Of a stretch of DNA of 41,937 nucleotides, positions 1-29,539 are shown in pieces. The notes below the pieces were generated by a model. It did not search any database. It was not told the DNA's origin and saw only the letters and a program-made list of their open reading frames with translations. The position numbers and the translations under genes are program-made. Origin of the DNA: Frankiaceae bacterium (lineage in GTDB: Bacteria; Actinomycetota; Actinomycetes; JAFAQI01); assembly GCA_019239875.1 (NCBI GenBank), contig JAFAZI010000124.1, positions 1-41,937 of the forward strand, written 5' to 3'. Each line of letters opens with the position of its first letter. Within the stretch, counting starts at the first letter, position 1.

Positions 1-552
1 CAGATCATGCCGGACCGGATCGAGGACGGTCCGTGGACGACCACCGGCGGCCTCGCCTGCCCGCTGCTCACGACGGAGCGCGAGGTCGTCAAGGGCGACG
101 TGCTGTGGGTCGACATGGGCATCAGCTATGGCGGGTTCCAGTCCGACTTCGGGCGAACCTGGATCGTGGGGGACGAGCCCAGCGCGGTTCAGCGGGCGCA
201 GTTCGAGAAGTGGCGGGCGATCATGGCCGCCGTACTCGGCAAGCTCCGGGCGGGCGCCACGTGCGCCGATCTCACCGCAGCAGCGATCGAGGTGGCCGGC
301 GGCGGCAAACCCTGGATGGACCACTTCTACCTCGGCCACGGTCTCGGCATCGACAGCGCCGAGATGCCGTTTGTCGGCAGCGACATCGGCCCTGAGTTCG
401 ACGCGTCGTACGTCCTCGAAGCCGGCATGCTGCTCGTCCTCGAGCCGATCGTCTGGGAGAACGGGCAGTGCGGCTACCGCTCCGAGGAGGTGCTCCTCAT
501 CACCGAGGACGGGTGGGAGCCGATGACCGACTACCCGTACGACCCGTTCTGA
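1..552 (+). CDS. M24-family metallohydrolase (Xaa-Pro peptidase-like), 5' end outside window
   Basis: C-terminal 183 codons of a pita-bread-fold M24 protein; the reading frame is open to the left edge, so the real start lies upstream. All five metal ligands of an active M24 enzyme can be placed (numbering from the window edge): D38 in WVDMG, D49 in SDFGRTW, H113 in LGHGLG, E148 in LEPIVWE and E162 in YRSEE. M24 enzymes cleave Xaa-Pro bonds, but the fold also hosts creatinase and the DMSP lyase DddP, so a non-peptide substrate is possible. It stops 8 bases before the next gene, an M24 paralogue, and heads the catabolic operon. Family assignment is certain, substrate unknown. Confidence 0.9.
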   Translation, partial: QIMPDRIEDGPWTTTGGLACPLLTTEREVVKGDVLWVDMGISYGGFQSDFGRTWIVGDEPSAVQRAQFEKWRAIMAAVLGKLRAGATCADLTAAAIEVAGGGKPWMDHFYLGHGLGIDSAEMPFVGSDIGPEFDASYVLEAGMLLVLEPIVWENGQCGYRSEEVLLITEDGWEPMTDYPYDPF

Positions 553-560
553 GGACTACG

Positions 561-1688
561 TTGACGACCGAGATTCTGCCCGATGACGCGGCGCTGCGAG
601 CGGCGCGGCGGGAACGCGTGCTCGCTCAGATGGAAGCCGCGGGCATCGACATCCTGATCACCGGTCGCGAGGCCAATGCTCGCTACATCGCAGGTGTTCC
701 TCGGCTGTGGCTGAACGGCTCGCGGCCCTTCGGCCCGGGCTGCATATACGTGCGCGAGACCGGCGACATCCACTTGGTGCAGACGTGGGACGAAGGAGTC
801 CCGCCCGACATCCCGCACGAGCACCTGCACGGCATCACCTTCAACGGGGCGAACACCGTCAAGATGCTGCAGGGCGTGCACGGCGCCGACGCCGCGCGGA
901 CCGTCGCGACCGATGGCCTGATGCCGTCGACCGCACGGCTGATCCGGACCGCGTACCCGAACGCCGAGCTGGTCGATGGTGAGCAGCTCCTGCGTGAGGT
1001 GCGCCGGATCAAGCTGCCCGAGGAGATCGACGCGATTCGCGTGGCGATAGGCATCGCGGAGCGCGCTCTGGCGGCGGCCGAGCAGGCGTTCGCCGTCGGT
1101 GTCACCGGCCGCCAGCTGACAGGCGTGTTCATGGAGGCCATGGCCGAGGAAGGCATCACGACTCCGACGACCCAAGACGTGGCGCGGATCAGCTCTCGCA
1201 CCGAAGCCTGGGCCAACGTGAGCCGTGACACGGCCATCGCGGCTGACGACCTGGTCTCGTTCGACGCCGGGGTCCTCGCCGGCGGTTACATCGGCGAGGT
1301 GGGTCGCACCCGTTGCCTCAACGGCCTCGCCTCGGCGGCGGGTTCGCTGCTCGACACGTGGGACGAGCTCTGGGATCGACTGGTGAACGCCTGCCGAGCG
1401 GGTGCGCCGGCGACCGACCTGCTCGACGCGTACGACGCGTCGGGACTGCCGGCGCCGCCGACCCCGGTGGCGCGCGGGCTCGGGCACGGCAACGACCTTC
1501 CGCTGGTCAGCCATGCGCTGCCGAAGACGGCCGCGGAGCAGAAGCTCGAGGCTGGCATGGTGCTGGCCCTCACCGGCTACGTGTGGCAGGAGGGCGTCGG
1601 TGCTGTCTACGGGCAGGAGCCGGTCCTCATCACCGACTCGGGTCCGACGCTGTTGTCGGCAAACCCGTTCCGCGAGGCAAGGAGCTAG
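561..1688 (+). CDS. Second M24-family protein with degenerate metal site
   Basis: 375 aa from a TTG start at 561, chosen because GAGGA (551-555) sits five bases upstream and the N-terminal creatinase-type domain (residues about 15-145) then begins normally. The C-terminal catalytic domain covers about 155-370. Aligned by eye to the upstream paralogue, the ligand positions read D235, E246 (Asp expected), H309, T338 (Glu expected) and E353, and the usual Arg two residues before the last Glu is Gly351. At least one ligand is therefore lost and another changed, as in creatinase-like members that do not use metals. It may be a metal-independent hydrolase or a non-catalytic partner of the first M24 protein. 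Cotranscribed with the next gene (6-base gap). Confidence 0.85.
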   Translation: MTTEILPDDAALRAARRERVLAQMEAAGIDILITGREANARYIAGVPRLWLNGSRPFGPGCIYVRETGDIHLVQTWDEGVPPDIPHEHLHGITFNGANTVKMLQGVHGADAARTVATDGLMPSTARLIRTAYPNAELVDGEQLLREVRRIKLPEEIDAIRVAIGIAERALAAAEQAFAVGVTGRQLTGVFMEAMAEEGITTPTTQDVARISSRTEAWANVSRDTAIAADDLVSFDAGVLAGGYIGEVGRTRCLNGLASAAGSLLDTWDELWDRLVNACRAGAPATDLLDAYDASGLPAPPTPVARGLGHGNDLPLVSHALPKTAAEQKLEAGMVLALTGYVWQEGVGAVYGQEPVLITDSGPTLLSANPFREARS

Positions 1689-1694
1689 GACGTC

Positions 1695-2663
1695 GTGGTC
1701 GAAGAGTTCCCGCCGCCCGAAGAGATCATCAGGTACGAGAAGGACAAGGTCTCGCGGATCGCGACGATCACCTTCGATCGTCCCGACCAGCTGAACATCC
1801 CGACGATCGGAGCGCGTCGTCGTTACGGCGACCTGATCTTCAAGGCGAGCCTCGACGACGACGTGAAGGTTCTCGTCATCCGTGGAGTCGGTGACCACCT
1901 GGGCACCGGCGCGGACCTCGACGAGCTGATGGCAAAACGCAAGCAGGGCACCGCGCTGCACGAAGAGTTCGGCATCGACGTCGACGAGGACGTCACGATG
2001 CCGCCGCACAAGTCCTACCGTGCTGGTGCCTCGTTGCTGCACTGGTACGCCGACCCCGGATCCGGGTGCCGGTCGCTCGCCGAGTTCAAGAAGATCAGCA
2101 TCCTCGAGTGCAAGGGCTATGTGTACGGCTGGCACTTCTACCAGGCAGCCGACGCCGACCTGGTGATCTCCTCTGACGACGCGTTGTTCGGCCACCCGGC
2201 TTTCCGCTACGTCGGCTACGCACCACGGATGTGGCAATGGGCGACGATGATGGGCCTGCGCAAGTTCCAGGAGATGGTGTTCACCGGTCGCCCGTTCTCG
2301 GCCGAGGAGATGTACGACTGCAACTTCGTCAACAGCGTCGTAGCGCGGGACCAGCTCGAGGCCGAGACCGACAAGTACGCGCAGGCCTGCTCCAGGACCC
2401 GGCCGAGTGACACGATCTTCATCCAGAAGGTGTTCTTCGAGATCATGAAGCAGCACCAGGGCGAGCGCATGGGCAGCCTGCTGTCCGCGTGGCTCGAGTC
2501 GATGGGCGGCCAGCTGCGTGCCGACACCGACAACTCGCTGGCGACGCTGTCGAACGAGACGATGGACGCCGGCCTCAACAATGCGGTGAAGGACAACGAC
2601 AGCCAGTTCCCGCCGGAGTGGCGGCTGTCACGCGGTGGGCGCCGGCAGCCGGCGGCTGAGTGA
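1695..2663 (+). CDS. Crotonase-fold protein (enoyl-CoA hydratase/isomerase family)
   Basis: 322 aa from GTG 1695. The N-terminal crotonase core is recognisable: RIATITFDRP (21-30) and the first oxyanion-hole segment GTGADLDEL (70-78), followed by an insert of about 40 residues before LECKGYVYGW. The second oxyanion segment, normally GGG followed by a catalytic Glu, reads GWHFY (145-149). The position of the second catalytic Glu, in FGxPE, reads FGHPA with A169. Both hydratase glutamates thus appear absent, so water addition to an enoyl-CoA is unlikely. Another CoA-thioester reaction (isomerisation, hydrolysis, C-C cleavage) or a structural role is possible. Its stop overlaps the GTG of the CoA-transferase by 4 bases, so the two are probably translated together. 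Confidence 0.85.
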   Translation: MVEEFPPPEEIIRYEKDKVSRIATITFDRPDQLNIPTIGARRRYGDLIFKASLDDDVKVLVIRGVGDHLGTGADLDELMAKRKQGTALHEEFGIDVDEDVTMPPHKSYRAGASLLHWYADPGSGCRSLAEFKKISILECKGYVYGWHFYQAADADLVISSDDALFGHPAFRYVGYAPRMWQWATMMGLRKFQEMVFTGRPFSAEEMYDCNFVNSVVARDQLEAETDKYAQACSRTRPSDTIFIQKVFFEIMKQHQGERMGSLLSAWLESMGGQLRADTDNSLATLSNETMDAGLNNAVKDNDSQFPPEWRLSRGGRRQPAAE

Positions 2664-4972
2664 CAGCGATGGCACCGCTGTCCGGCTATCGCGTCGTCGA
2701 CCTGTCGACGTGGATTGCTGGGGCGTACTGCACGAAGCTGCTCGCCGACGGTGGCGCGGAGGTCACGAAAGTCGAGTCCGGTGACCGCGACCCGTTGCGC
2801 CGGTGGTCGGCGTCGGGCGCCGCGATCGCCGACGGCGCTGACGGTGCCTTGTTCAACTTCCTCAACGCGGGCAAGCGCAATCTGGCGGTGGACGGGTCGC
2901 ATCTCGCAAGCGTCCACGAGCTGCTCGCTGCCGCAGATGCGGTCGTCTGGTCGAGGGACGCTGCACTGGCAGAGGTGCTGAACCCTGTCACGATCCGCGA
3001 AGCGCATCCGCACCTGACCGTCACTGCGATCTCCCCGTTCGGCCTGGCCGGACCGTGGCGCGACAAGCCCGCCACGGAGTTCACCTTGCAGGCCTGGTCA
3101 GGTGCCATCGTCGGTCTGGGTAGAGGTACGCCGGACCGCGCGCCGACGTACGTCGGAGGCCAAGTGGGGGAGTGGGTCGCCGGGGTGTTCGCGGCGATCG
3201 GCACTCTCGCATCGGCCCGCCGTGACGGCGGCGAGCTGGTCGACGTCTCGATGCTCGAGGCGCTCGCGATGTCGCTCACCTACTTCCCGGTCACGTTCAA
3301 CGACCAGCTCGGCCGTCCGATGCGCAAGAAGCGGTTCACACCGACACCCGGGGTCGCGGCCGCGAAGGACGCGTTGGTCGGGCTGGGATGCGGGACCGGC
3401 CAGCAGTGGTTCGACTTCTGCGCGATGGTGGGCCACCCGGAGTGGACCGAGGACCCCAAGCTGTTCCTCGAGCGAACGGCGCTGCAGCCGACGATCGACG
3501 CGTGGGTGGCCGCCCGGACGAGCGACGAGGTGCTCGACCTCGCGAGCGCGTTCCGGATTCCGAACGCACCGATCGCGAACGGCGAGAACTCGCCGACCCT
3601 CGACCACTTCGTCGAGCGCAAGACGTTCGTCACGAACCCGATCGACGGCGTGCTCAATCCCGGCTCCCCGTTCCGGCTGTCCCCGCACCCGGCCGGGGAT
3701 CCCACCCCGTCGGCCAAGGGCCCGCTGCCGTTCAGTGGCTTGCGGGTGCTGGACATGACGGCGTTCTGGGCTGGGCCGTTCGCGAGTCACGTCCTCGCGA
3801 TGCTCGGCGCTGAGGTCATCCACGTGGAATCCCCGTCCCGCCCCGACGGCGTCCGCCTGGTCGGCGGCGTACCGCAGACCGAGGACGAGTACTGGGAGCG
3901 CGGGCCGATCTTCGCGGCGCTGAACACGAACAAGAAGAGCCTGACTGTGGACCTCAGCGAGCCGCGCGGCCGGGAGCTGATTCGCAAGGTCGTCGCCACG
4001 TGCGATGTCGTCATCGAGAACTTCACGCCACGGGTCCTCGACCAGCTGGGGCTGACGTACGAGTCGTTGCGGGAGGTGCGACCTGACCTCGTGATGGTCC
4101 GGATGCCCGGCTTCGGTCTGGACGGCCCGTGGCGGGACAAGGCCGCGTTCGCGTTCGTCATCGAGGACGCTTCGGGCCTCACGTGGCTGACCGGTCACGA
4201 GGACTTGCTTCCGATCGAGCCGTACTGCCTGGGCGACCCCAACGCCGGACTGCACGCTGTGGTCGGGCTGATGCTGGCGCTCGCGCACCGCGAGCGGACG
4301 GGTGAGGGAAGCCTGGTCGAGGCCGCGATGGTCGACGCTGCGCTGAACATCGCCGCCGAGCAGGTGGTCGAGCACTCGGCGTACGGCGCCCTGCTGACCA
4401 GGTCGGGCAATCGCGGGCCACTTGCTGCGCCACAAGGCCTGTACCGCGCGGCAGCGCACGACAGGTACGACGACGACTGGGTCGCGATCGCGGTGGCGAC
4501 GGACGACCAGTGGGCAGCACTGTGCGATGCCGTCGGTAAGCCGGACTGGGCTGCTGACCCGAATCTGGCGACGGCGCAGGGCCGTGCCACAGCGCATGAC
4601 GAGATTGATGCGGCGTTGCAGGAGTGGTGCCGAGCCCGACCGGTCGATGCGATCGTCGACCAGTTGTGGCAGATTGGTGTACCGATCGGTCCAGTCATCC
4701 AACCGCACCGCCAACCCGACCTGGAACAGCTCGCGTTCCGCAACTTCTTCGAGGAGATGGAGCATCCGGTGGCACCACGTAGCCGCTACAGCACCCTCCC
4801 GATGCAATTCACGCACGGGCCCGAGAAACGGCACCGCACGCCAGCGCCGCGGCTCGGTGAGCACAACGCAGAGCTGCTGAGCGAAATCGGTTTGAGCTCT
4901 GCCGAGATCGACGCGCTCGAGGCCGACGGCGTCATCGGGTGCGCCTTGCGCAGCTCGGGCGGGGTTCGCTGA
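2660..4972 (+). CDS. Tandem-domain class III (CaiB/BaiF) CoA-transferase
   Basis: 770 aa made of two complete family III CoA-transferase domains, residues about 5-350 and 358-755, each opening with the nucleotide-fold motif (SGYRVVDLSTWIAG and SGLRVLDMTAFWAG). Family III enzymes move CoA between acids through an Asp-bound acyl anhydride. That Asp is present in domain 2 (D559 in AMVDAAL) but the matching position in domain 1 is E200 (SMLEAL), so only the second half is likely catalytic. The same architecture is known from DddD, the DMSP CoA-transferase/lyase; here it is a resemblance in layout, not a proof of function. The GTG start overlaps the upstream stop; an in-frame ATG nine bases later is the alternative. 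The stop overlaps the MarR start (TGATG). Confidence 0.92.
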   Translation: MTAMAPLSGYRVVDLSTWIAGAYCTKLLADGGAEVTKVESGDRDPLRRWSASGAAIADGADGALFNFLNAGKRNLAVDGSHLASVHELLAAADAVVWSRDAALAEVLNPVTIREAHPHLTVTAISPFGLAGPWRDKPATEFTLQAWSGAIVGLGRGTPDRAPTYVGGQVGEWVAGVFAAIGTLASARRDGGELVDVSMLEALAMSLTYFPVTFNDQLGRPMRKKRFTPTPGVAAAKDALVGLGCGTGQQWFDFCAMVGHPEWTEDPKLFLERTALQPTIDAWVAARTSDEVLDLASAFRIPNAPIANGENSPTLDHFVERKTFVTNPIDGVLNPGSPFRLSPHPAGDPTPSAKGPLPFSGLRVLDMTAFWAGPFASHVLAMLGAEVIHVESPSRPDGVRLVGGVPQTEDEYWERGPIFAALNTNKKSLTVDLSEPRGRELIRKVVATCDVVIENFTPRVLDQLGLTYESLREVRPDLVMVRMPGFGLDGPWRDKAAFAFVIEDASGLTWLTGHEDLLPIEPYCLGDPNAGLHAVVGLMLALAHRERTGEGSLVEAAMVDAALNIAAEQVVEHSAYGALLTRSGNRGPLAAPQGLYRAAAHDRYDDDWVAIAVATDDQWAALCDAVGKPDWAADPNLATAQGRATAHDEIDAALQEWCRARPVDAIVDQLWQIGVPIGPVIQPHRQPDLEQLAFRNFFEEMEHPVAPRSRYSTLPMQFTHGPEKRHRTPAPRLGEHNAELLSEIGLSSAEIDALEADGVIGCALRSSGGVR

Positions 4973-5595
4973 TGGCCCGCGTGACTGCCGGTCGCGGCGG
5001 CTACGAGCCGGCGCCGTTCGACGTCGTCGAGGCCTCGCGCCGGGTCTGGTTGAGCCAGTGGAACGAGGAGGCCGCGTCGGGGATGGCGGTGTTCACTGCG
5101 ATCCTTCGCTCCTTCCAGCTGCTCAACGACGAGGTGAACCGGGTGATGGCGCGCCACGACCTGACCTTCGCTCGGTACGAGGTGCTGACGTGGCTCGCGA
5201 CCGATCCCGAGTCGTCGTTGACGTTGAGCTGGATCAGCAAGACCCTGCGAATTCCGCCGGCCACCGTGACCAACGTCATCGACCGGTTGGAGCAGGACAA
5301 GCACGTACGACGGGTACCGCACCCGTCCGACGCGCGCACCACGCTCGCTGTCATCACCCCGCGCGGCCGCAGAGTTGCGACGAGTGCCACCGAGGACTTG
5401 AACGCGAGCGTCTACGAGCGGGTCGGCTTGTCCATGGATCAGCGCCACCAGCTCACTGACCTGCTCGCAGAGCTGCGCGCGAATGGCAACGAGTTCGACG
5501 TCGACCGATCGCAAGAGGTCATCGAGGAGCTCTCGGCGCGACATGACTCACCCAGGGCGGCGCGGGCTCGCAAGCGCCGCGCCGACGTGGCTTAG
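4972..5595 (+). CDS. MarR-family transcriptional regulator
   Basis: 207 aa, ATG at 4972 sharing its A with the stop codon of the CoA-transferase. The winged helix-turn-helix lies at about residues 48-125: DLTFARYEVLTWLA, SWISKTLRIPPATVTNVIDRL (recognition helix) and the wing RVPHPSDARTTLAVITPRGR with the DxR motif typical of MarR. MarR dimers usually repress catabolic genes and release DNA when they bind a phenolic or acyl-CoA ligand. Its position inside the operon suggests that it controls this cluster; no operator was identified, and the operon promoter is probably left of the window. The C-terminal tail is rich in Arg, Lys and Ala. Confidence 0.92.
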   Translation: MARVTAGRGGYEPAPFDVVEASRRVWLSQWNEEAASGMAVFTAILRSFQLLNDEVNRVMARHDLTFARYEVLTWLATDPESSLTLSWISKTLRIPPATVTNVIDRLEQDKHVRRVPHPSDARTTLAVITPRGRRVATSATEDLNASVYERVGLSMDQRHQLTDLLAELRANGNEFDVDRSQEVIEELSARHDSPRAARARKRRADVA

Positions 5596-5604: not shown

Positions 5605-6960
5605 ATGACCGACCGCCAGGTGCCGTTCGCGATGGATGCTGATGCGCCGGACCGCATCCCCAAGGAGCGCTACTACGACCCGGCGTTCTTCGAGAGGGAA
5701 GCCGACGCCCTCTGGTCGCGGGTCTGGCAGATGGCGTGCCGGCTCGAGGAGATCCAGCAGCCGGGCGACTACGTCGAGTACTCGATCCTCGACCAGTCGG
5801 TCATCGTGGTGCGCGGCGACGACATGTCGGTACGCGCGTTCCAGAACGCATGCCGCCACCGGGGGGTGCGGCTCGTCGACGGGCCGGGCAGCTCGACCAG
5901 TGGATTCACGTGTCCGTTTCACGGCTGGTGTTACGGCACCGATGGTGCGAATACGTTCGTCTCGCGGCGCGGCACGTTCGCCGAGCACAACCTCGAGCCC
6001 GCCGACATCAGCCTCGTCCCGGTGCAATGCGAGACCTGGGGCGGATGCGCGTGGATCAACCTCGATGACTCGGCGCCGCCGTTGCGCAGTTGTATTGAGC
6101 CGTTCGCCTCTTACATGGACACCTGGCAGCTGGACAACATGCGTGCCGAGTGGTGGTACGCCTTCCGGCTCCCAGTGAACTGGAAGCTCGCCGAAGAGGC
6201 GTTCATGGAGCAGTACCACGTACTCGAGACCCACCCTCAGCTACGGATCCCCGGCCGGTACCCGATGAAGGGCAAGGCGTTCGACCCGAAGATGTTCCTC
6301 GAATCCGAGCTGCACTACCTGCGCGTGATGAGCGAGGGCATGGCAGGCATGGTGCACGCGAATGACGTCAAAGTGGCGGAGGGCCTGCAGGACGTCGAGC
6401 TGCCCGCTGACCCCGTCGAGGCCAGAGCGACATGGGAGCGGACCCTCAACGCTGCGGTCGTCGAATGGCATCGCGCCGAGGGGCATGCGATCCCCGATCT
6501 GAACGAGATCGAGGCGAAGGGCATGACCGAACCGATGGTCTACTGCTTTCCGCACTTCTTCGTCCTGCCGATGTACAGCAGCGCTTCGTCGTACCGCTTC
6601 CGGCCGCTCGGACCGGAGGAGACGCTCATGGAGATCTGGTCGTTGACGCGGTTCCCCGAGGGTGAGGAGCGGTCCGCACCGACGCCGCCAGACCCGTGGG
6701 CGCACGACGACCCGCGCGTGCCACCTATCCCGACGCAGGACTTCTCGAACCTGCCGCGGCAGCAACAGGGTTTGCACTCGAAGGGCTTCGAGTACATGCG
6801 GCTGTCGGAGCAGATCGAGGGGCACATCTCGAACTTCCATCGCACGATCGATGGGTACCTGCAGGGCAAGTCCCACGCGGAGCTTGCCCATGCTCTCGAA
6901 GAGCTCAACATCAACCCGCTCGAGCGTCCGGTGGTCGACCTCGGGTTCGAGCAGAGATGA
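5605..6960 (+). CDS. Rieske non-heme iron oxygenase, alpha subunit
   Basis: 451 aa, ATG with AGGAG (5594-5598) six bases upstream. The N-terminal Rieske domain binds [2Fe-2S] through C83/H85 (ACRHRG) and C103/H106 (CPFHGW). The catalytic domain carries the mononuclear iron site in NWKLAEEAFMEQYHVLETH with H205 and H210; a C-terminal Asp (in HRTIDGYL) is the probable third ligand. The residue that usually bridges the two centres is Glu (E202) instead of the Asp of naphthalene dioxygenase; carnitine monooxygenase CntA also uses Glu, but many uncharacterised family members do too. Such enzymes hydroxylate or demethylate small acids, aromatics or amines. No beta subunit, ferredoxin or reductase gene is nearby, so electrons must come from proteins encoded elsewhere. 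Confidence 0.93.
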   Translation: MTDRQVPFAMDADAPDRIPKERYYDPAFFEREADALWSRVWQMACRLEEIQQPGDYVEYSILDQSVIVVRGDDMSVRAFQNACRHRGVRLVDGPGSSTSGFTCPFHGWCYGTDGANTFVSRRGTFAEHNLEPADISLVPVQCETWGGCAWINLDDSAPPLRSCIEPFASYMDTWQLDNMRAEWWYAFRLPVNWKLAEEAFMEQYHVLETHPQLRIPGRYPMKGKAFDPKMFLESELHYLRVMSEGMAGMVHANDVKVAEGLQDVELPADPVEARATWERTLNAAVVEWHRAEGHAIPDLNEIEAKGMTEPMVYCFPHFFVLPMYSSASSYRFRPLGPEETLMEIWSLTRFPEGEERSAPTPPDPWAHDDPRVPPIPTQDFSNLPRQQQGLHSKGFEYMRLSEQIEGHISNFHRTIDGYLQGKSHAELAHALEELNINPLERPVVDLGFEQR

Positions 6961-6967
6961 GCGGCGA

Positions 6968-8161
6968 GTGACGACAGCGACGTCGGTCTACTACGACCCG
7001 TACGACGTCGAGCTCGCGCGAGACCCGTATCCGACCTACCGTCGGCTGCGCGAGGAAGCCCCGCTGTACTACAACGACAAGTACGACTTCTACGCCCTCA
7101 GCCGGTACGCCGACTGCGAGCGCGGCCTGCCGGACTGGGAGACCTTCAACTCCGGGCGTGGTGCGATCATCGAGTTGATCAAGGCCGACCTGGAGCTGCC
7201 ACCGGGCACGCTGATCTTCGAGGATCCGCCTGCTCACGACATCCACCGCAGCCTGCTGGTGCGGGTGTTCACCCCCCGTCGCGTGGCCGCACTCGAACCG
7301 CAGATCCGCGCCTACTGCGAGCAGCACCTGGACCCGCTGATCGGCGCGAAGGAGTTCGATCTGATCGCCGAACTCGGCGCCCAGATGCCGAGCAAGGTCA
7401 TCGGGATGCTGCTCGGCATCCCCGAGTCCGACCAGGCCGCCGTCCGCCAGTCCGTCGACGACAACTTGCGCACGCGTGCCGGTGAACAGATGACGGTGAC
7501 GGACGCGTCGTTCGTCAGTGGCGAGATGTTCGAGGACTACATCGACTGGCGCGCGAAGAACCCCTCCAACGACCTGATGACCGACCTGCTCAACGCGGAG
7601 TTCGAGGACGAGCACGGCGTCACGAGAACCCTCACGAAGCAGGAGGTGCTGACCTATGTCACTGTCGTGGCCGGCGCCGGCAACGAGACCACCACGCGCC
7701 TGATCGGCTGGATGGGTTCGCTCCTCGCGCAGCATCCCGACCAGCGAGCCGCCCTTGTCGCCGACCGGTCGCTGATCCCGAATGCGGTCGAAGAGACGCT
7801 GCGCTACGAGCCACCAGGCCCGCACGTCGCGAGGTACGTCGCTCGCGACGTCGAGTTCCACGACCAGGTGGTGCCGACGGGCAGCGTGATGCTGTTCCTG
7901 CTCGGATCCGGCAACCATGATGACCGCCGATTCCCTGATGGCGACCGGTTCGACATCCACCGCAAGGTCACGCAGCACCTCGGATTCGGATATGCGGTGC
8001 ACTACTGCATGGGTGCCGCACTCGCCCGGCTCGAAGGTCGGATCGCGCTGGAGGAGATCCTCGAGCGATTCCCGACCTGGGACGTCGACTGGGACGGCGC
8101 CAGACTCGGGCAGACGTCAACCGTGCGCGGGTGGGAGACGCTACCCATCAGTGTGGGCTGA
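6968..8161 (+). CDS. Cytochrome P450
   Basis: 397 aa from GTG 6968, seven bases after the Rieske stop. This start gives the usual bacterial P450 opening YYDPYDVELARDPYPTYRRL; the frame is also open upstream inside the Rieske gene, but that part is not P450-like. Signatures: I-helix AGAGNETT (235-242, oxygen activation), K-helix ExxR at E276-R279, and the heme-binding loop FGYAVHYCMG with the proximal ligand C347; the third Gly of the consensus is Ala here. Soluble, class I type, needing ferredoxin and reductase from elsewhere. Likely hydroxylates the same substrate series as the Rieske enzyme or a downstream intermediate. Substrate not predictable. Confidence 0.95.
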   Translation: MTTATSVYYDPYDVELARDPYPTYRRLREEAPLYYNDKYDFYALSRYADCERGLPDWETFNSGRGAIIELIKADLELPPGTLIFEDPPAHDIHRSLLVRVFTPRRVAALEPQIRAYCEQHLDPLIGAKEFDLIAELGAQMPSKVIGMLLGIPESDQAAVRQSVDDNLRTRAGEQMTVTDASFVSGEMFEDYIDWRAKNPSNDLMTDLLNAEFEDEHGVTRTLTKQEVLTYVTVVAGAGNETTTRLIGWMGSLLAQHPDQRAALVADRSLIPNAVEETLRYEPPGPHVARYVARDVEFHDQVVPTGSVMLFLLGSGNHDDRRFPDGDRFDIHRKVTQHLGFGYAVHYCMGAALARLEGRIALEEILERFPTWDVDWDGARLGQTSTVRGWETLPISVG

Positions 8162-8198
8162 GTCGGCGTAGCGGACAGTCGTGGCGGTCGGGAGCAGC

Positions 8199-9044
8199 AT
8201 GAGCGAAGCCAGAACGGTGGCCGTGATCACCGGCGGTGCCGGCGGAATGGGTCTTGCCACGGCCAAGATCATGGGCACGAATCACCGTCTGCTGCTCAGC
8301 GACGTCAGCGATGACCGTCTCGACGCGGCGGTGGCAGAGCTGCGGGCCGCGGGGGTCGACGCCGATGCAACCCGCTGCGACGTCACAGATGGCGACTCGG
8401 TACGCGCGTTGGTGGAGCGGGCGAGATCGCTCGGTGAGGTTGTCGCGGTCGTGCACACCGCAGGCGTGAGCCCCCAGATGGGCGGCCCGGAGATGATGCT
8501 GCGGATCAACGCGCTCGGGACGGTGGCCGTCACCGCGGCGTTCCTTGCCGGGGCAGCACCCGGGTTCCGCATCGTGAACGTCGCCTCGATGTCGGCGTAC
8601 ATGTCGCCCCGGGCCGCCATGCCTCGGGGCACGTACAAGTACGCCTTGACTGATCCCGAGCGCTTTGTCTCGAAGGTGATGCGCCGCTTGCGGATCACCG
8701 GCGAGGAGCAGCGGTCCGGCTTCGCCTACGCCATCAGCAAGAACTTCGTCGTGTGGCACGCCAAGAAGATGGCGTCGGAGTTCGGCGCCCGCGGGGCGCG
8801 CATCGTCTCGGTGTCGCCCGGATCGATCGACACACCGATGGGACGGCTCGAGCAAGATCACGGCGCTGGACAGATGTTGCGGTTCGCCGCACTCAAGCGG
8901 TTCGGTCGCGTCGAGGAGATCGCCGAGGTCCTGGCGTTCTGCGCGAGCAACAAGGCCGGCTACCTGACCGGTACCGACATCCTGTGCGACGGCGGTGTGG
9001 TGGCTGGGGTCCGGTTGAAGGACCTGCTGTCCGTCGGCCGCTGA
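8199..9044 (+). CDS. Short-chain dehydrogenase/reductase with extended active-site loop
   Basis: 281 aa. ATG 8199 is preferred because GGGAG (8190-8194) lies just upstream; an in-frame GTG at 8181 would add six residues. Cofactor motif TGGAGGMG (11-18), catalytic Ser130 or Ser132, Tyr177 and Lys181 (YAISK). The Ser-Tyr distance is 45-47 residues instead of the usual 12-13, because a charged insert separates them. A comparable long insert is known in the 3-alpha-hydroxysteroid dehydrogenase/carbonyl reductase of Comamonas (Ser114/Tyr155), so a bulky substrate such as a steroid or hydroxylated terpenoid is plausible. Last gene of the catabolic operon; probably oxidises the alcohol made by the P450 or Rieske enzyme. 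Confidence 0.9.
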   Translation: MSEARTVAVITGGAGGMGLATAKIMGTNHRLLLSDVSDDRLDAAVAELRAAGVDADATRCDVTDGDSVRALVERARSLGEVVAVVHTAGVSPQMGGPEMMLRINALGTVAVTAAFLAGAAPGFRIVNVASMSAYMSPRAAMPRGTYKYALTDPERFVSKVMRRLRITGEEQRSGFAYAISKNFVVWHAKKMASEFGARGARIVSVSPGSIDTPMGRLEQDHGAGQMLRFAALKRFGRVEEIAEVLAFCASNKAGYLTGTDILCDGGVVAGVRLKDLLSVGR

Positions 9045-9467: not shown

Positions 9468-12400
9468 TCAATGACGTCGCGGCACCTCGGGGAGCTGCAC
9501 ACCGATCGCATAGGCGAGGCGATGTGTGCGGGCCAGCGACGGCGCGAACGCGCGGTGATGGCCGCGGCCCGCCTGGATGAAGTAGTCCACACCGGAGGGG
9601 GTCGCAGCGTGCCCAGGGATCTTCGCGACGTAGACACCGTGCGGCCCGGTCCGGCGCATCCGGACCGAGCGGTAGGACTTGCCGTGGGTGCGGTAGTGCA
9701 GTGTCACGGCGCCGACGTGGCGACCGACGGCGATCGCGGTGATCGGCGTCGAGCGACCGCTGACCTGGTCACGTACCGACACGTCGTAGATGACAGGCGA
9801 CGCCGACCGGGCATGGAACCCATGCAGCTTCACATGGAAGTGACGCATCGCGGCACGAACGATCCGCACCGAGGTCGCGGCATTCGTGTCCTGCCCCAGG
9901 TTGAAGCCCAGCGTGATCGTCTTGAAGTGGTGGTGCTTCGCGTCGCCATTGACGGCAGTGCCGAGCCATGGCTTGGCGGTGGGCCGGATCGCCGGGAAGT
10001 CCTTGCGTTTCGCTGACACGACACCCGAGACCTTGCCGTAGGGCCGCACGGTCGTGCCGACCGCCGTCTCGGCCTTGCTCGACAATGCGCCGAAGTCGAC
10101 GAACGGGCGGATCATCTCGGGTGCGATCCGGCCTTTGATGCCCTTCAGCAGACCGCGACCGGTCACCTTGACCGGCTTCTCCTGAGTCGCCGTGTACGAC
10201 GAGTTGGGAGTCACGGTGCCGAGATAGTGCGCACCGAAGTTGACCTGACCGGTCGTCGACTGCGGCGTCGACGCGGTCTGCCCGATTCCCATGGCGTCGA
10301 TCAGTCGGTTGGAGCTGAACAGCACCTTGCCGCCGTGATCGAGGTACTTGGTGACGACGGCCTGGTCCTGGAAGTTCAGCTGACCGATGTAACGGTCGGT
10401 GCCGGCCTCCCAGACGACCGCCGCGTAACGGCGCAACGTCTTGTACTGCGGGTGCGCCGTCACCACGGCGTACCGGATCCCGAGTGAGGCCAGAGCGCCG
10501 GTGACAGCCCGCTCCTGGTTGAGCAGGCCGTCGTCGTCGACGACGAGCACCCGGCCGCGCTTTGCGGTGTGCGCAACGCGCGGTCCTGCCCAGCCCTCGG
10601 ACATCTGCACGTTGTTGCCCTTGTCGGCATCGTGGCGGCCATGGGCGCGTCGCACACTCGTGTACAGGTGATAGGCACCCTCATGTGCTGGCCGATACGT
10701 GAACGACACGTTCTTGCGGCTGAATGCACCGAGCTTGACCTGCCGCCTCGCGACGACGTGCCCGTGCGCCGAGTTGCTGCGGACGGTTACGGTGACCCGG
10801 CCCGCAGCCTTGCCGCCGTTAGAGAACACGGGCACGGCGAGGCGGTTGCGTTGGCCAGCCGAGACCGCGTTCGTCCCGTTGTGACTGTTGTGTGCGCCGC
10901 TGACGAAGCCGGGTGAGACGTCGGCTCGGTGCTTGAGGTTGACGACATCCAGCGTGATCGAGTTGTTGCGGCTCGTGTCCTGCTGCTCGTCGAGACCGTC
11001 GTCATACTTCCGCGGCCCGATGTTCGTGAACGCCCACCCAGTCGGCTTGCGGCTCCAGTTCGACCAGGTGTCTGCTGCACCCTCGGTGGTGTACGAACCA
11101 GGCCCGGTGAAACGCACGGTGCCGGTCCATTGGAGGCATCCGGCGAAGTCCCCGACGGTGGCGGTCCACTTTCCTGGCATCGGGTTCTTGACCGAGTACG
11201 ACTCCTGCTCGCCGGCGCCGGTCGAGTCGGTCTCCGGCGTCGTCTTGCCCTTGGGGTCGGTGAGGCTGAGCGTGCAGTCGCCGGCCGGGTTCGTGCTGCC
11301 CACGGTGACCGTCATCGCGGCGTTGTTGGGGTTCTTGTCGACCGTGAAGTCCTGGCTGCTCGTGGCAGCCGGTGGTGTCGTGCCGCCGAGGTCGATCGGG
11401 TTCTGCGGATCACCCTTCGCAGGCTCGTCTCCCGGGGGCAGCTTGTGGGTGCCCGACGTGATACCTGTCGCAGCCCCCTGGAGGAGATCGCTCGGGTTGC
11501 CGCGGGAGTAGTTGAGCTGGAGCTCCTGGGTGTTGTCGTTCTGGTCGAACTCCTCGAGATCCATCTGGTAGCGCGTGGTGTCGGTCTCGGCGTCGTTCCC
11601 GCCGTACAGCGTGTTCGACCGTTTCCAGTAGTCGAAGTGCCAGACCGCCAGCCCGGAACTGTGCTGCTTGCGGTCGAAGATCGCGCCGCGGGTCTCGCCC
11701 TTGTGCTCAGGACCTGCGTGGGCCATCCGCGCGATGTTCTCGACGTAGAAGCCTTCCACGACGTACTTGTGGGTCTTCGGGTCCTTCGCCAGACCCGTCA
11801 CGTCGAACTCGCTCCACGTGTGGCCGACCTTGTCGGTCTCGCCGAGCTTGACCTCATAAGTGGGTACGAGCAGGAGGTTCGGGTCGGTCTGCTTAACGGA
11901 GTAGTGCCTGCTCGGGAAGACCGTCCGCGGCTGGAGCCGTACGTGCCGCAGGCTCTTGTGCACGATCCGCGGCTTCAACCAGCCCTGGAAGACCCGGGTT
12001 GCCGGGTTCTGCATGGCCGGGTTCGAGCCGGACGGATTCCCCAAGTACGACCCGCCCGACATGATGTCGAAGTCGCCGGTGCCGACAGAGTTGTACGACG
12101 TGTCGTAGTAGTCGGGCTCGCCGAGCGAGTGCGCCATCTCATGGCTCGCGACGCCGATGGTCAACGGGTCTGCGGGCGACTCCGCCTCGGCGATCGTCAG
12201 CACCCGGTCGACGGTGACGCCGTCGTTGGTGGGCGCCCCGACCCGACTGAGCGTTCCGGGCGGTAGCCCGAGCGTCTGCTCGACGAGAGCGCCCGCGCCC
12301 AGCGTCGCCTGCGCGGCATGCGACCACGTGTTGCACGGATCGCCGGTGACCGCCATGTCGTCGCCGGAGTGGATGATGATGGTGAAGTCGACCTTGCCGT

Positions 12401-13316
12401 CACCGTTGTTGTCGTACTTCGAGAAGTCCACCGTGGGGTCTGCCAGCGGCAGCACCTCGGCCGCCATGCCGATCGCGCCACCACCGCCGGCCTGCACGGC
12501 GGTTCCGAGCGGGTCACCGTCGGTGATCGGCTGCGGCTCGCCGATGTCGCCGTAGTAGCACCGATCGGTGCGCGAGCGGTTCGAGGTGAAGGGGCCGTAG
12601 ACGTCGATCTTGACCAGGAACTGGCCGAACGACGACTCCCAGTAGAACTGGGTGACCGAGCCGCGTGGGTTGCCACCGAAGCCGCTGAGGAGCTTCTTGA
12701 AGTACTTGCGGTTGTGGCCCTTCTGGAACTGCGGTTCCGTCTGGCCCTTCTTCGGGTCCCACCAGGTGGCGAAGAGCAGAGCGGGGACGCGGAACACTCG
12801 CGGCTTGCCTTCGGCGGCGGCCTTCAACTGGGCGTTGTACGAAGCGACCTGGAGCTGCCGCTGGATCGAGTCACGAATCTCCTGCTCGGCGGGCGAGATC
12901 TTCGTGGTCTGCCGACCGGCATGCGGCGCGAGGCCACGGGGCACCGCGCCGTGACCGACGATGACGTTCGACAGTCGCAGCGAGCCGTTCGCGTCGCGCC
13001 CGAGGACGTACCGGTAGTAGCCGTCCGCACCCCGGCCGATGCTGAAGCCGCCCGGCACCGTCTCGAACAGGCCGCCCTTCGTCGCGGGCGTCAGGCGAGC
13101 GCGGATCAGCTTGCCGTTGGGCTGGCGCACCAGCTGCACGCCTGCGCTCGCGGGCGCGAAGTCCGGCGCAACGGCGGGCTTGGCGACGGCGACGGCGGCC
13201 GGATGCGGCGCGCTGGCTGCTGCGGCGGGGGCAATGGCAACCGCGCCGCCGGCCAGCATCGAGGCGGTGGCAAGCCCGACGGCGAGACGCCGTCCGGTGG
13301 TGGGTGTAGAACGCAT
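9468..13316 (-). CDS. Large secreted M6-family metalloprotease (immune inhibitor A-like)
   Basis: 1282 aa with an N-terminal signal peptide (RR at 9-10, hydrophobic stretch about 11-35, Ala-rich cleavage region). The M6 catalytic motif HEMAHSLGEPD places zinc ligands at H392, H396 and probably D402, with E393 as general base. After the catalytic part come a PPC-like beta domain with a Cys pair (about 640-745), a CARDB/Ig-like domain (about 790-890), a Rossmann-like domain beginning GRVLVVDDDG (about 905-1010), and a C-terminal Ig-like beta domain. No sortase motif or terminal membrane helix, so it is probably released. It is clearly longer than Bacillus InhA (roughly 800 aa). Likely role: extracellular protein degradation. 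GGGGG lies about eight bases before the ATG. Confidence 0.93.
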   Translation of the reverse strand: MRSTPTTGRRLAVGLATASMLAGGAVAIAPAAAASAPHPAAVAVAKPAVAPDFAPASAGVQLVRQPNGKLIRARLTPATKGGLFETVPGGFSIGRGADGYYRYVLGRDANGSLRLSNVIVGHGAVPRGLAPHAGRQTTKISPAEQEIRDSIQRQLQVASYNAQLKAAAEGKPRVFRVPALLFATWWDPKKGQTEPQFQKGHNRKYFKKLLSGFGGNPRGSVTQFYWESSFGQFLVKIDVYGPFTSNRSRTDRCYYGDIGEPQPITDGDPLGTAVQAGGGGAIGMAAEVLPLADPTVDFSKYDNNGDGKVDFTIIIHSGDDMAVTGDPCNTWSHAAQATLGAGALVEQTLGLPPGTLSRVGAPTNDGVTVDRVLTIAEAESPADPLTIGVASHEMAHSLGEPDYYDTSYNSVGTGDFDIMSGGSYLGNPSGSNPAMQNPATRVFQGWLKPRIVHKSLRHVRLQPRTVFPSRHYSVKQTDPNLLLVPTYEVKLGETDKVGHTWSEFDVTGLAKDPKTHKYVVEGFYVENIARMAHAGPEHKGETRGAIFDRKQHSSGLAVWHFDYWKRSNTLYGGNDAETDTTRYQMDLEEFDQNDNTQELQLNYSRGNPSDLLQGAATGITSGTHKLPPGDEPAKGDPQNPIDLGGTTPPAATSSQDFTVDKNPNNAAMTVTVGSTNPAGDCTLSLTDPKGKTTPETDSTGAGEQESYSVKNPMPGKWTATVGDFAGCLQWTGTVRFTGPGSYTTEGAADTWSNWSRKPTGWAFTNIGPRKYDDGLDEQQDTSRNNSITLDVVNLKHRADVSPGFVSGAHNSHNGTNAVSAGQRNRLAVPVFSNGGKAAGRVTVTVRSNSAHGHVVARRQVKLGAFSRKNVSFTYRPAHEGAYHLYTSVRRAHGRHDADKGNNVQMSEGWAGPRVAHTAKRGRVLVVDDDGLLNQERAVTGALASLGIRYAVVTAHPQYKTLRRYAAVVWEAGTDRYIGQLNFQDQAVVTKYLDHGGKVLFSSNRLIDAMGIGQTASTPQSTTGQVNFGAHYLGTVTPNSSYTATQEKPVKVTGRGLLKGIKGRIAPEMIRPFVDFGALSSKAETAVGTTVRPYGKVSGVVSAKRKDFPAIRPTAKPWLGTAVNGDAKHHHFKTITLGFNLGQDTNAATSVRIVRAAMRHFHVKLHGFHARSASPVIYDVSVRDQVSGRSTPITAIAVGRHVGAVTLHYRTHGKSYRSVRMRRTGPHGVYVAKIPGHAATPSGVDYFIQAGRGHHRAFAPSLARTHRLAYAIGVQLPEVPRRH

Positions 13317-16339: not shown

Positions 16340-17173
16340 ATGGCGATCGATGACCGGGCCCGCCGGCCAGTCGTCGATCTGCAACCTCTGATCGACAGTG
16401 GCACGGCGAGCGTCAACACGCTCGGCCAGCTGGCAGCGATGATCCTGGACTCGGCGATCCTGCTCGTCGAGAGCATCGTCAAGCGGACGTTCCCATGGCG
16501 GGAGTTCGTCGGCCAGGCCTGGTTCCTCACGTCGGTCTCCGTGCTTCCGACGCTGCTGATCGCAATCCCCTTCGGGATGGTCGTCGTCCTCGAGGTCGGC
16601 GGTCTCGCCAGCCAGATCGGTGCCACCTCTTACGTCGGTGCCGTCGACGCGATCGGAACGGTGCGCGACGCCTCCCCGATCGTGACGGCGCTGATCCTCT
16701 CCGGCGCGGGAGGTTCGGCGATCTGCTCCGACCTAGGCGCGCGGACCGTTCGCGAAGAGATCGATGCGATGCGGGTTCTCGGGCTCAACCCGGTGCAGCG
16801 TCTCGTCGTACCCCGCATCGCCGCGACCGTCGTGGTTGCTGTGCTGCTGAACGGAGTGGTCGCCTTCACGGCGATCGTCAGCGGCTATCTCTCCGACGTC
16901 GCGTTCCTCCACGGGACTGCGGGCGGCTTCCTCAACACCTTCAGCTCCTTCGCCCAGCCGTCCGACCTCGTCGTGTCGGTGGTGAAGGCCGCGATCTTCG
17001 GCTTCCTCGCGGCGGCGATCGCTTCCTTCAAAGGCCTCAACACCAAGCCCGGCCCGGCCGGGGTCGGGATCTCCGTCAACGAGTCCGTGGTTGTCACCGG
17101 GATCGCGCTCTTCGTGACGAACCTCGTGATCACTCAGATCTACCTGACCGTCGCGCCGCCGAGGATCACCTGA
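16340..17173 (+). CDS. yrbEA: Mce-transporter permease YrbEA (MlaE family)
   Basis: 277 aa, five to six hydrophobic helices, with the conserved MlaE-type cytoplasmic stretch SPIVTALILSGAGGSAICSDLGARTVREEIDAMRVLGLNPVQRLVVPR, the segment that contacts the ATPase. YrbEA and YrbEB form the inner-membrane channel of the actinomycete Mce lipid importers. Start ATG 16340 has only a weak GGTGA upstream; the nearby ATG 16327 is in another frame. First gene of an operon in which the stop and start codons of all eight genes overlap. The matching ATPase (Mkl/MceG type) is not in this window. Confidence 0.95.
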   Translation: MAIDDRARRPVVDLQPLIDSGTASVNTLGQLAAMILDSAILLVESIVKRTFPWREFVGQAWFLTSVSVLPTLLIAIPFGMVVVLEVGGLASQIGATSYVGAVDAIGTVRDASPIVTALILSGAGGSAICSDLGARTVREEIDAMRVLGLNPVQRLVVPRIAATVVVAVLLNGVVAFTAIVSGYLSDVAFLHGTAGGFLNTFSSFAQPSDLVVSVVKAAIFGFLAAAIASFKGLNTKPGPAGVGISVNESVVVTGIALFVTNLVITQIYLTVAPPRIT

Positions 17174-18036
17174 TGGCGCTGGTGACGGTCCCGACGCGCG
17201 GCGCGGCCCTGCTCCGGATCCGACGGGCAGGCAAGGGCGTGAGCGACCAGATCCAATGGCTGGGCGGCCTCGTCATCTTCACGGGCAAGATCGTCGTTTC
17301 GGTGCCGTCGGTGTTGCGGCGCTATCTGCGCGAAGTGCTGCGGCTGCTGACTGACGTCACCTTCGGCGGGCGCCTGCTCGCCGTCACGGCGAGCACGACG
17401 GCCGTGCTGATCATCCTGTCGGCGGCCGTCGGCATCGAGATCGGCGTCGAGGGAGTGCAAGGCCTGCAGGTCATCGGGCTGGCCCCGCTCGCCGGGTTCC
17501 TCGCCGGCTTCGGTGACACCCGTGAGATCGCGCCCCTGATCACGGCGTTCGGCATCGCGGCACAGCTCGGCTGCCGGTTCACCGCGCAGATCGGCGCGAT
17601 GCGGATCAGCGAAGAGATCGATGCGCTCGAGGTGATGGGCATCCCTTCGCTTTCCTACCTCATCACCACCCGCGTCATCGCGGCGCTCATCGCCGTGATC
17701 CCGCTGTACTTGATCTCGCTGGCCGGCGCCTACTTCTGCACCGAGCAAGCCGTCAGCCTCTTCGCCCACGTCGGGACCGGCACGTACCGCTACTACTTCC
17801 ACTCGATCCTGACCCCGCGCGACGTGGTGTTCTCGACGGTGAAGGTCATCGTCTTCGTCGTGCTCATCACCGTGATCCACACCTACTACGGCTACACGGC
17901 GGGCGGTGGTCCCGAGGGCGTCGGTCGTGCGACGGGACGCGCGATCCGCGCGAGCATCGTGACGCTGGCGATCACCGACATGCTGATGACCCTGCTGTTC
18001 TGGGGCACCTCGCCAGGAATCCACATCACCGGATGA
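17173..18036 (+). CDS. yrbEB: Mce-transporter permease YrbEB (MlaE family)
   Basis: 287 aa, ATG 17173 sharing a base with the yrbEA stop (TGATG). Same architecture as YrbEA with an N-terminal amphipathic region, TM helices and the loop ITAFGIAAQLGCRFTAQIGAMRISEEIDALEVMGI ending in conserved EEIDALEVMGI. Pairs with YrbEA to form the permease heterodimer. A longer frame runs upstream inside yrbEA but is not coding-like. Its stop overlaps mceA. Confidence 0.95.
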   Translation: MALVTVPTRGAALLRIRRAGKGVSDQIQWLGGLVIFTGKIVVSVPSVLRRYLREVLRLLTDVTFGGRLLAVTASTTAVLIILSAAVGIEIGVEGVQGLQVIGLAPLAGFLAGFGDTREIAPLITAFGIAAQLGCRFTAQIGAMRISEEIDALEVMGIPSLSYLITTRVIAALIAVIPLYLISLAGAYFCTEQAVSLFAHVGTGTYRYYFHSILTPRDVVFSTVKVIVFVVLITVIHTYYGYTAGGGPEGVGRATGRAIRASIVTLAITDMLMTLLFWGTSPGIHITG

Positions 18037-19379
18037 GCGCGACGTCGAGCGAGGCACCGCGGCGGCGGCTCTCGGAGCAGCCATGGGTCCTCTTCACTGC
18101 AGGGATCGCGCTGCTCGCGACGGTGGTCGGCACGATCGTCTTCGTCTTCGCGGCGTTCACCGGGAGCCTGTCGAAGACGGTGCGCGTCTCGGCGGAGCTC
18201 CCTGCGGCGGGCAACGCCGTCCGACCCGGTGACCGGGTCGAGTATCTCGACGTCCCGGTCGGGACGGTCGCCAGCGGCGAGCGGCTGAACCGCGACGGTC
18301 AGGCGCTCGTCGACCTCAAGCTCACTCCGTCGAAGGCCGCCGTCATCCCGGCCAACGTCGAGGCGGTGGTCGCGCCGTTGTCGATCTTCGGTAACCAGTA
18401 CGTCAACCTGCTGCCGCCGGCCGTCCCGGACGGCCATCTCGCTCCGGGCCAGGTCATCGTCGCCTCGACCTCGTCGCCATCCGGGTCGTTGCAGGACACG
18501 CTGGCAAACCTGTACGACGTGCTCCGAGCCGTGCATCCCGCGCAGCTCGATGCGGCGCTCTCCGCAGTCGCGACAGCACTCAAGGGCCACGGCCGGCAGA
18601 TCGGCGGCGCGATCGACCAGGTGAGTGGCTACCTGCAGATGCTGCGTCCGGAACTCCCGACGCTGGTCGACGACTTCCGGCTCGCGGCCACCGCCGCCGC
18701 CGCCCTCGTCGGTTCGGTCGGACCGTTGCAGGCGTCACTTCACAACCTGACCACGACCGCGAAGACCGTGGTCGACCAGCAGACGAACCTCGCCTCGGTG
18801 CTCACCAACGGGTCTCGATTCGCCGGCCAGCTGAGCGGTGTGCTGAGCGACACAGCAGCGACCTACGCGCAAGTCGTCGCAAATGTCGAGCCGCTGCTCG
18901 TCAGCCTGGGTCGCCATCCGGCCTCGTTGATCAAGATCACCAAGGGATTGTCGAACTGGACCAGGTCATGGTCCAGCGCCGTTGGCCCGGGTCCGTACAT
19001 CCACTTCAACGTCCTGCTGCCGGTACCGGACCCGTACACCTTCCTGTTCGCAGCCGAGGGCGGACCGACCGGTCGAGCGCTGGCCGACCAGGCATTTCGC
19101 CGGGAGCTGGATCCGTTTCCGTACTCGGCGAAGGACTGCCCCCGCTACGGCCGGCTCGCCGGACCGAACTGCCCGGGACGCTCCAGCAGATCGGTGCAGA
19201 CCGCGACGACGTCATCGGCAGCGCCCCGCCGGGTCGCCGCGCCTTCGCCGACGAGTACCAACCCGCAAGAGTCTGCGATCGCCAAGATCTTGCGCGGTCT
19301 CGGCATCACCGTCGACCACACATCGGCCGCCATCGGAAGCCTGCTGCTGGGCCCGGTCATCGCGCGGAGCGCGCAGTGA
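18033..19379 (+). CDS. mceA: Mce-family substrate-binding subunit MceA
   Basis: 448 aa, longest of the six Mce proteins. One N-terminal membrane helix (19-41), then the MlaD/MCE domain (about 48-127: RPGDRVEYLDVPVGTVASGE, ending FGNQYVNLLPP), then a long helical region that in this family forms the periplasmic tube, and a C-terminal low-complexity Ser/Ala/Pro tail. Mce proteins form a heterohexamer that carries hydrophobic molecules (fatty acids, cholesterol) across the cell envelope. ATG overlaps the yrbEB stop. The A-F letter reflects order in the operon. Confidence 0.93.
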   Translation: MSATSSEAPRRRLSEQPWVLFTAGIALLATVVGTIVFVFAAFTGSLSKTVRVSAELPAAGNAVRPGDRVEYLDVPVGTVASGERLNRDGQALVDLKLTPSKAAVIPANVEAVVAPLSIFGNQYVNLLPPAVPDGHLAPGQVIVASTSSPSGSLQDTLANLYDVLRAVHPAQLDAALSAVATALKGHGRQIGGAIDQVSGYLQMLRPELPTLVDDFRLAATAAAALVGSVGPLQASLHNLTTTAKTVVDQQTNLASVLTNGSRFAGQLSGVLSDTAATYAQVVANVEPLLVSLGRHPASLIKITKGLSNWTRSWSSAVGPGPYIHFNVLLPVPDPYTFLFAAEGGPTGRALADQAFRRELDPFPYSAKDCPRYGRLAGPNCPGRSSRSVQTATTSSAAPRRVAAPSPTSTNPQESAIAKILRGLGITVDHTSAAIGSLLLGPVIARSAQ

Positions 19380-27067: not shown

Positions 27068-27088
27068 GATCGATGATCAAGCTCGATC
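27068..27088. terminator. Weak stem-loop between convergent ephD and paaE
   Basis: GATCGA (27068-27073) pairs with TCGATC (27083-27088) around a nine-base loop, overlapping the paaE stop. Only six pairs and no T-tract, but the position between two convergent operons suits a bidirectional terminator. Weak evidence. Confidence 0.3.
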
Positions 27089-28148: not shown

Positions 28149-28149
28149 G

Positions 28150-29285: not shown

Positions 29286-29538
29286 CGGGCACTTCGTAGA
29301 ACGTCGGGTGGCGGTAGACCTTGTCCATCGCCGGCTCGAAGAGCTCCGCGGCATCCGCGGGGTCGCTCGCGACGATCGCCGTGGACGGCACCACCCAGAT
29401 GCTCGCGGCCTCACCGCGGCGGGTGAAGACGTCGCGGGCGTTACCCAGCGCCATCTCGGCGTCCACGGCATGGATGCTGCCGACATGTTGGTGGTGCAGG
29501 CCTGCCCGCGCCCGAACGAACACTTCCCACAGCTGCAC
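29266..29538 (-). CDS. paaB: Phenylacetyl-CoA epoxidase subunit PaaB
   Basis: 90 aa from GTG 29538, one base after the paaA stop. Typical small PaaB: LWEVFVRARAGLHHQHVGSIHAVDAEMAL, ARDVFTRRGEAASIWVVPS, ending in the acidic PTFYEVPDGVTNL. Bridges PaaAC dimers in the epoxidase complex. Overlaps paaC by 20 bases. Confidence 0.95.
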   Translation of the reverse strand: MQLWEVFVRARAGLHHQHVGSIHAVDAEMALGNARDVFTRRGEAASIWVVPSTAIVASDPADAAELFEPAMDKVYRHPTFYEVPDGVTNL

Positions 29539-29539
29539 G

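Follow-up and report, generated by a model that had tools for sequence, protein, structure and literature searches.

The window, the whole stretch of DNA analysed here, spans 41,937 nucleotides from a Frankiaceae bacterium and is one complete contig (C69) of a 206-contig assembly, the contig start coinciding with the window start. Two adjacent genes for M24 proteins, referred to here as A and B, open the window and are followed by a run of genes on the same strand:

1–552, plus strand: protein A, M24 family with intact metal ligands; C-terminal 183 residues (PF00557, 93.2 bits), the 5′ part cut by the contig start
561–1688, plus strand: protein B, M24/creatinase fold with a degenerate metal site; TTG start, 375 residues
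606–1010, plus strand: N-terminal (Creatinase_N) domain of B, residues 16–150 by the Pfam span, the more conserved half of B
1695–2663, plus strand: crotonase/enoyl-CoA hydratase-like protein (PF00378), the next gene after B
2660–4972, plus strand: double (fused) family III CoA-transferase (PF02515, two stretches)
4939–5595, plus strand: MarR-type regulator
5605–6960, plus strand: Rieske oxygenase alpha subunit
6956–8161, plus strand: cytochrome P450 (start approximate; the mechanical open reading frame opens at 6662)
8181–9044, plus strand: short-chain dehydrogenase

The gene for A is split across two contigs of the assembly, the window start and contig C32 (locus L189, G000:C32:1-5064), which carries a piece of the N-terminal part on its minus strand (G000:C32:2-616). 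Near this piece on C32, the translations read as an amidohydrolase, a delta-1-dehydrogenase-like FAD protein and a P450, families checked in homologues elsewhere. Protein B scores 72.3 bits against PF00557 and 34 bits against PF01321, above the respective cut-offs of 23 and 22. The Mycobacterium (M.) branderi record annotates A as 'Xaa-Pro peptidase family protein' and B as 'M24 family metallopeptidase'. Further along, the window encodes a large protein whose peptidase domain is of the M6 (immune inhibitor A-like) type (9468–13316, minus strand). It also has probable Mce-type lipid/sterol import genes (16340–24720, plus strand), two of which were tested and gave MlaE permease and Mce4_CUP1 domains, and phenylacetyl-CoA epoxidase-type genes (27087–31180, minus strand), where the two tested gave a PaaA_PaaC domain and a ferredoxin/NAD-binding reductase.

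Built from a five-row alignment, a single-chain model of B reaches a pLDDT of 62 and a pTM of 0.67; its weak stretches, at residues 47–59, 74–125 and 300–314, include the N-domain loops most relevant to a composite site. The model has the pita-bread fold: it superimposes on 4r60 with Z 25.5 and an rmsd of 4.5 over 327 aligned residues. Residues ~8–375 match prolidases, creatinase (1chm, Z 24.3), DoeA and DddP at Z 23–25.5, and Spt16 N-domains are also among the matches; with Z scores this nearly tied, the closest reaction cannot be told from the fold. The solved sequences nearest to A and B are bacterial prolidases and aminopeptidases P, and creatinase 1chm matches B in sequence too. PepQ, PepP and YpdF resemble A and B in fold, two-domain layout and nearest solved sequences, but their NCBIfam equivalog cut-offs lie far above the scores obtained here: B scores 41.1 against a cut-off of 630 for PepQ, 30.9 against 465 for PRK10879 and 38.6 against 393 for PRK09795, full-length M. 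branderi A reaches 78.2 of the 630 for PepQ, and the A fragment falls far below the PepQ, PepP and YpdF cut-offs. Creatinase, the ectoine hydrolase DoeA and the DMSP lyase DddP, all among the fold matches of B, are non-peptidases that use the pita-bread fold for small molecules; here too the equivalog scores are far below the cut-offs, at 45.3 bits (A fragment) and 37.5 bits (B) against 600 for DddP and 19.7 bits (B) against 575 for DoeA.

We compared the metal site of B across a set of 71 non-redundant complete A–B pairs, from which duplicates and split B genes had been removed and pairs with B shorter than 330 or A shorter than 350 residues dropped, the truncated A of the window excepted. 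The five ligand columns of B were placed by alignment to solved prolidases and to four other M24 proteins, and fall as follows in the window:

1263–1265, plus strand: D235, ligand position 1, kept here; Ser, Ala or Gly in 65 of 71 B
1296–1298, plus strand: E246, ligand position 2; Asp throughout A (71 of 71), Glu in most B (67 of 71)
1485–1487, plus strand: H309, ligand position 3; His in the B of the window only (1 of 71)
1572–1574, plus strand: T338, ligand position 4; Glu throughout A (71 of 71), Thr, Ser or Gln in every B (71 of 71)
1608–1610, plus strand: Y350, in the column of the conserved Arg of A (71 of 71 A); Phe, Tyr, Leu, Ile or Val in 71 of 71 B
1617–1619, plus strand: E353, ligand position 5; Glu or Asp in 66 of 71 B

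An earlier note, from a hand alignment with the upstream paralogue, had read an Asp-to-Glu change at E246, a Glu-to-Thr change at T338, retention of His309 and loss of the Arg near E353, and each of these readings holds. The alignments to prolidases and other M24 proteins return the same residues and columns for E246 and T338; Y350 occupies the position three residues before the last ligand, E353 itself being present; and H309 sits in the true ligand column, the segment H309–M333 aligning without gaps to the prolidase 5cdl/5giu. The spacing of 24 residues from the third ligand to the GM motif in 68 of 71 B supports this column, the ligand His of A lying 30 residues ahead of its GM motif, owing to an insertion in A. 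A combined A–B alignment had suggested R305 as the third ligand position, which is ruled out by the ungapped prolidase match, the 24-residue spacing and an independent five-row alignment. The B of the window therefore has three of the five D, D, H, E, E ligands.

Across the set, A is almost uniform at the five positions (D in 71, D in 71, H in 71, E in 71, and E in 68 with D in 3). Position 1 of B is S in 49, A in 15, D in 6 and G in 1; position 2 is E in 67, G in 3 and T in 1; position 3 is L in 34, M in 34 and H, N or V in one each; position 4 is T in 60, S in 7 and Q in 4; and position 5 is E in 46, D in 20, A in 2, and Q, G or V in one each. None of the 71 B thus retains the ligand at position 2 or 4; the change affects 65 of them at position 1, 70 at position 3 and, counting D as kept, 5 at position 5. 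Allowing E or D at the fifth position, three ligands are retained in one B (that of the window), two in 3, one in 64 and none in 3, so that 67 of 71 keep at most one, and we find that B almost certainly lacks a working dimetal site. One further pair lies outside the set, removed by the filters described above (L038, G239:C75): its A has both Asp ligands changed (SQVSIS, SELGRT) and stands next to a B cut by the contig end, possibly an entire pair losing the metal site.

Protein A keeps its metal ligands and lacks the histidine of the PHG motif at the usual spacing. This spacing could be read in 28 of 29 control M24 proteins and in 70 of 71 members each of A and B, the missing A being A_L078, which has no search motif. 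Twelve residues before the Asp of the GD motif, all 28 controls have His, versus P in 69 and N in 1 of the 70 A. Eighteen residues before that Asp, the residue in the 70 A is H (50), T (19) or N (1), and the His position of the TTHGD motif of A holds H 51, T 19 and N 1 times among all 71; we considered this residue as the catalytic His of A, but the equivalence is doubtful, as the His of the controls stands six residues closer to the GD motif. A standard peptidase assignment for A was dropped since the PHG His is absent at standard spacing, and A is probably no ordinary peptidase, as judged from these motifs. The missing His suggests a different chemistry and leaves the activity of A itself unproven.

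Of 393 genomes sampled from the class, 32 contain B (E ≤ 1e-40), and the same 32, from a comparison of the two lists by eye, contain A (E ≤ 1e-50). The class also includes genus g11, probably Mycobacterium, the genus of M. branderi, where B is present in 225 of the 297 genomes sampled (E ≤ 1e-30); in the phylum, 12 of 396 sampled genomes have it (E ≤ 1e-25). The two genes are adjacent in 97 of 100 fetched loci, many of which overlap, and the pairing persists down to 33% identity. The three loci without A are one at a contig start (L107), one with a 62-residue tail at a contig end (L112) and one fragment inside a contig (L113). This last is a lone B fragment with a 255-residue open frame and no adjoining A (G657:C432:83596-84081). 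Three B genes in two genomes, two in G419 (loci L092, L099, L108 and L114) and one in G399 (L090), are frameshifted and split in two frames next to an open A, by assembly error or real loss. In-frame TAG marks (G448, G598, G657:C434) were also considered as broken B genes and set aside; the B frame of L106 (G657:C434) is open throughout its full length, and the TAG is thus most likely the gene's own end. The lone fragment, the frameshifted genes and L038 either argue against strict dependence of B and A on each other or indicate that pairs can decay. Elsewhere, a homology search of genome contigs returned three distant M24 proteins, a search of viral contigs returned no related locus, and PHROGs yielded a single weak hit, whose function is unknown.

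A 38-row tree places A and B as sister clades, each forming one side of a branch with 100/99 support; together they stand against the other sampled M24 proteins, and the same lineage groups recur in both, with several inner forks unresolved. This topology fits one old duplication followed by joint descent. Eight comparisons with the B of the window give dN of 0.22–0.43, dS of 0.75–1.32 and dN/dS of 0.22–0.41, from simple NG86 counts with dS near saturation, and by these counts B is under purifying selection. Co-inheritance of neighbouring genes is weak evidence of contact between their products, and contact itself is not thereby shown.

Domain-level conservation distinguishes B from A and from other M24 proteins. 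We computed conservation on 70 pairs, excluding that of the window, and on two control groups of 13 and 15 M24 proteins from 16 genomes (of 30 loci, the singleton L142 and L145, with no match, were omitted; group 2 aligns poorly with B in the N-domain). The difference in mean column identity between the C- and N-terminal domains is +0.066 [0.012, 0.121] in A and −0.103 [−0.155, −0.052] in B, and the corresponding difference in mean pairwise identity is +0.080 and +0.148 in the control groups of 13 and 15, respectively. Conservation is thus higher in the catalytic domain for A and for both control groups, and higher in the N-terminal domain for B. Zero lies outside the interval of the B-minus-A contrast in all ten settings (five overlapping sequence subsets, each with two domain boundaries), and in every one of them the catalytic domain of B is less conserved than that of A. 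Greater conservation of the N-domain of B relative to that of A is a trend only, the interval including zero in eight of the ten settings, and both settings that exclude zero use the four-sequence subset. Were B an enzyme in its own right, its catalytic domain would be expected to be the more conserved half; B shows the reverse, with an N-domain constrained more than the dead pocket, which fits a subunit that completes the site of a partner. This order of constraint in a dead copy had been predicted in this analysis; the prediction is our own and not a published criterion.

B is a conserved paralogue of a ligand-bearing M24 protein in which the ligands have been lost, as expected of a pseudoenzyme partner. 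The ligand table, shared genomes, adjacency, sister clades, purifying selection and reversed domain conservation together favour, with a probability we place a little above even, an A:B heterodimer in which B would be a metal-dead, dedicated M24 paralogue acting as the partner of A. The earlier note had proposed such a pseudo-enzyme partner alongside a metal-free creatinase-like reaction; co-occurrence, adjacency and common descent speak for the first proposal, and the reversed conservation of the N- and C-terminal domains does so most strongly; the second fares poorly, as set out below. In the heterodimer, the only functional dimetal site would lie on the C-terminal domain of A, and the N-terminal domain of B would help to form the substrate pocket of A, making A a single-site enzyme whose pocket is shaped by a separately evolving subunit. 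In creatinase and prolidase dimers, the N-domain is the part that faces the active site of the neighbouring subunit. In crystals of Pseudomonas (P.) aeruginosa PepP, the dimer has a loop that extends from one subunit into the active site of the next, which speaks for the proposed heterodimer; the same study (PMC5723419) reports recombinant PepP to be a monomer in solution, which speaks against it. The N-domain of A is not strongly relaxed (0.67), and A may accordingly form a homodimer instead.

Among the alternatives, the one that survives best makes B a binding or regulatory protein, homodimeric or free-standing, whose dead pocket holds a substrate or product and which forms no dimer with A. 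Residues on the pocket side are indeed conserved in B, with G242, Y243, G306, G308 and G310 invariant in 21 rows and E246 present in 67 of 71 sequences. Other pita-bread proteins that lack a catalytic site have non-enzymatic roles, among them LmaPA2G4 and the Spt16 N-domains found among the fold matches. The catalytic domain is nevertheless the less conserved half of B, and A occurs in the same genomes as B, and we regard a binding protein independent of A as unlikely.

A second alternative, raised in the earlier note, is that B is itself a metal-free enzyme of the creatinase type. Its Creatinase_N domain and its match to creatinase 1chm in both sequence and fold speak for this, as does a His three residues ahead of the usual catalytic position in 59 of 71 B, the B of the window not among them. 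Creatinase catalysis uses the His of the PHG column. In B, this alignment column (218) contains R in 62, A in 4, Q in 3 and G in 2 of the 71 sequences and no His; a motif-based count at the PHG spacing likewise finds R in 55, A in 5, W in 3, G, Q and P in 2 each, D in 1 and no His among 70 of 71 B, differing slightly from the column because of indels there in a few sequences. This test is weaker than it looks, since A also lacks a His at the same spacing. With the relaxed conservation of the catalytic domain added, we consider a metal-free reaction by B quite improbable.

A third possibility concerns the window alone, where B might still bind one metal via D235, E246, H309 and E353 and be either active or structurally metallated. 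It is the sole B of the 71 with three true ligands plus a Glu at the second Asp site, but one ligand is gone with the Thr at 338, no His stands at the usual catalytic position, and column 309 is L in four and N in one of the five members of the set most closely related to it. On these three grounds, the most plausible reading of H309 is a single recent substitution in an already dead site, and a one-metal site in this protein appears more doubtful still. Least probable of all is that A and B are ordinary tandem duplicates, one of which is simply decaying: they are paralogues, the catalytic residues of B are lost and three B genes look frameshifted, but B is under purifying selection, is present in most sampled genomes of one genus and keeps its pairing with A at low sequence identity.

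The nearest described case to the favoured A:B heterodimer is eukaryotic. The M24 domain of Caenorhabditis (C.) elegans PID-5 has lost its metal-coordinating residues, and the active enzyme APP-1 is enriched in PID-5 pull-downs, as described in one report (PMC7849312); a PID-5/APP-1 heterodimer is proposed in that report and another (PMC10377022). The likeness to A and B is that of an active M24 enzyme together with a paralogue whose metal ligands are lost. PID-5/APP-1 differs in its added eTudor domain and RNA-silencing role and in the conservation of APP-1 from yeast to human, whereas A and B are both bacterial, bare M24 proteins, co-inherited among catabolic genes. Prolidase- and creatinase-type M24 enzymes are usually treated as homo-oligomers. 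We found no dedicated bacterial M24 enzyme/pseudoenzyme pair described in the open-licence PubMed Central literature.

The genes around A and B may indicate the setting in which such a pair would act. Neighbours were counted in the window and 21 other loci, and because mechanical open reading frame calls miss genes (B is called in 21 of 22), these counts are minimum figures. All 22 loci have the CoA-transferase cluster, which lies within ~1.3 kb of B in 20 of the 21 loci with a called B, the exception being M. branderi, where it lies ~10 kb from B. Crotonase is called in at least 17 of the 22 loci, the main P450 in at least 16, the short-chain dehydrogenase in at least 18 and the amidohydrolase in at least 10. 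DitZ is linked to diterpenoid degradation, and the solved sequences nearest to the amidohydrolase upstream of A in M. branderi are PtmU3 (5e-28) and DitZ (1e-21). PtmU3 is grouped with dinuclear amidohydrolase-related oxygenases in one study (PMC10811679). Such PF04909 proteins resemble the neighbouring amidohydrolase only, and inform on the pathway, not on B. A CoA-linked oxidative breakdown of a cyclic compound is plausible from this gene content; no paper naming the operon or its substrate was found in open-licence PubMed Central. With P450, Rieske oxygenase, PtmU3/DitZ-like amidohydrolase, crotonase and CoA-transferase at hand, the pathway setting would be CoA-linked oxidative degradation, and the A:B heterodimer would there hydrolyse a small molecule or act on it as a lyase, rather than cleave peptides in a housekeeping role. 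In its fullest and more tentative form, which we hold to be possible but not probable, our proposal is an obligate enzyme/pseudoenzyme M24 heterodimer of A and B, widespread in mycobacteria, with a single dimetal site built from the catalytic domain of A and the N-domain of B and acting without the PHG His on a CoA-linked alicyclic or terpenoid-like compound, in an undescribed step of hydrolytic or lyase type.

If the A:B heterodimer is real, a subunit that lacks a metal site but retains a constrained second domain would isolate what a partner subunit contributes to an M24 active site, a contribution that could then be tested by mutating one subunit at a time. The peptidase annotations of A and B, as in the M. 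branderi record, would also come into question. The pair points to an uncharacterised gene set that recurs in the genus of M. branderi, where 225 of the 297 genomes sampled have it.
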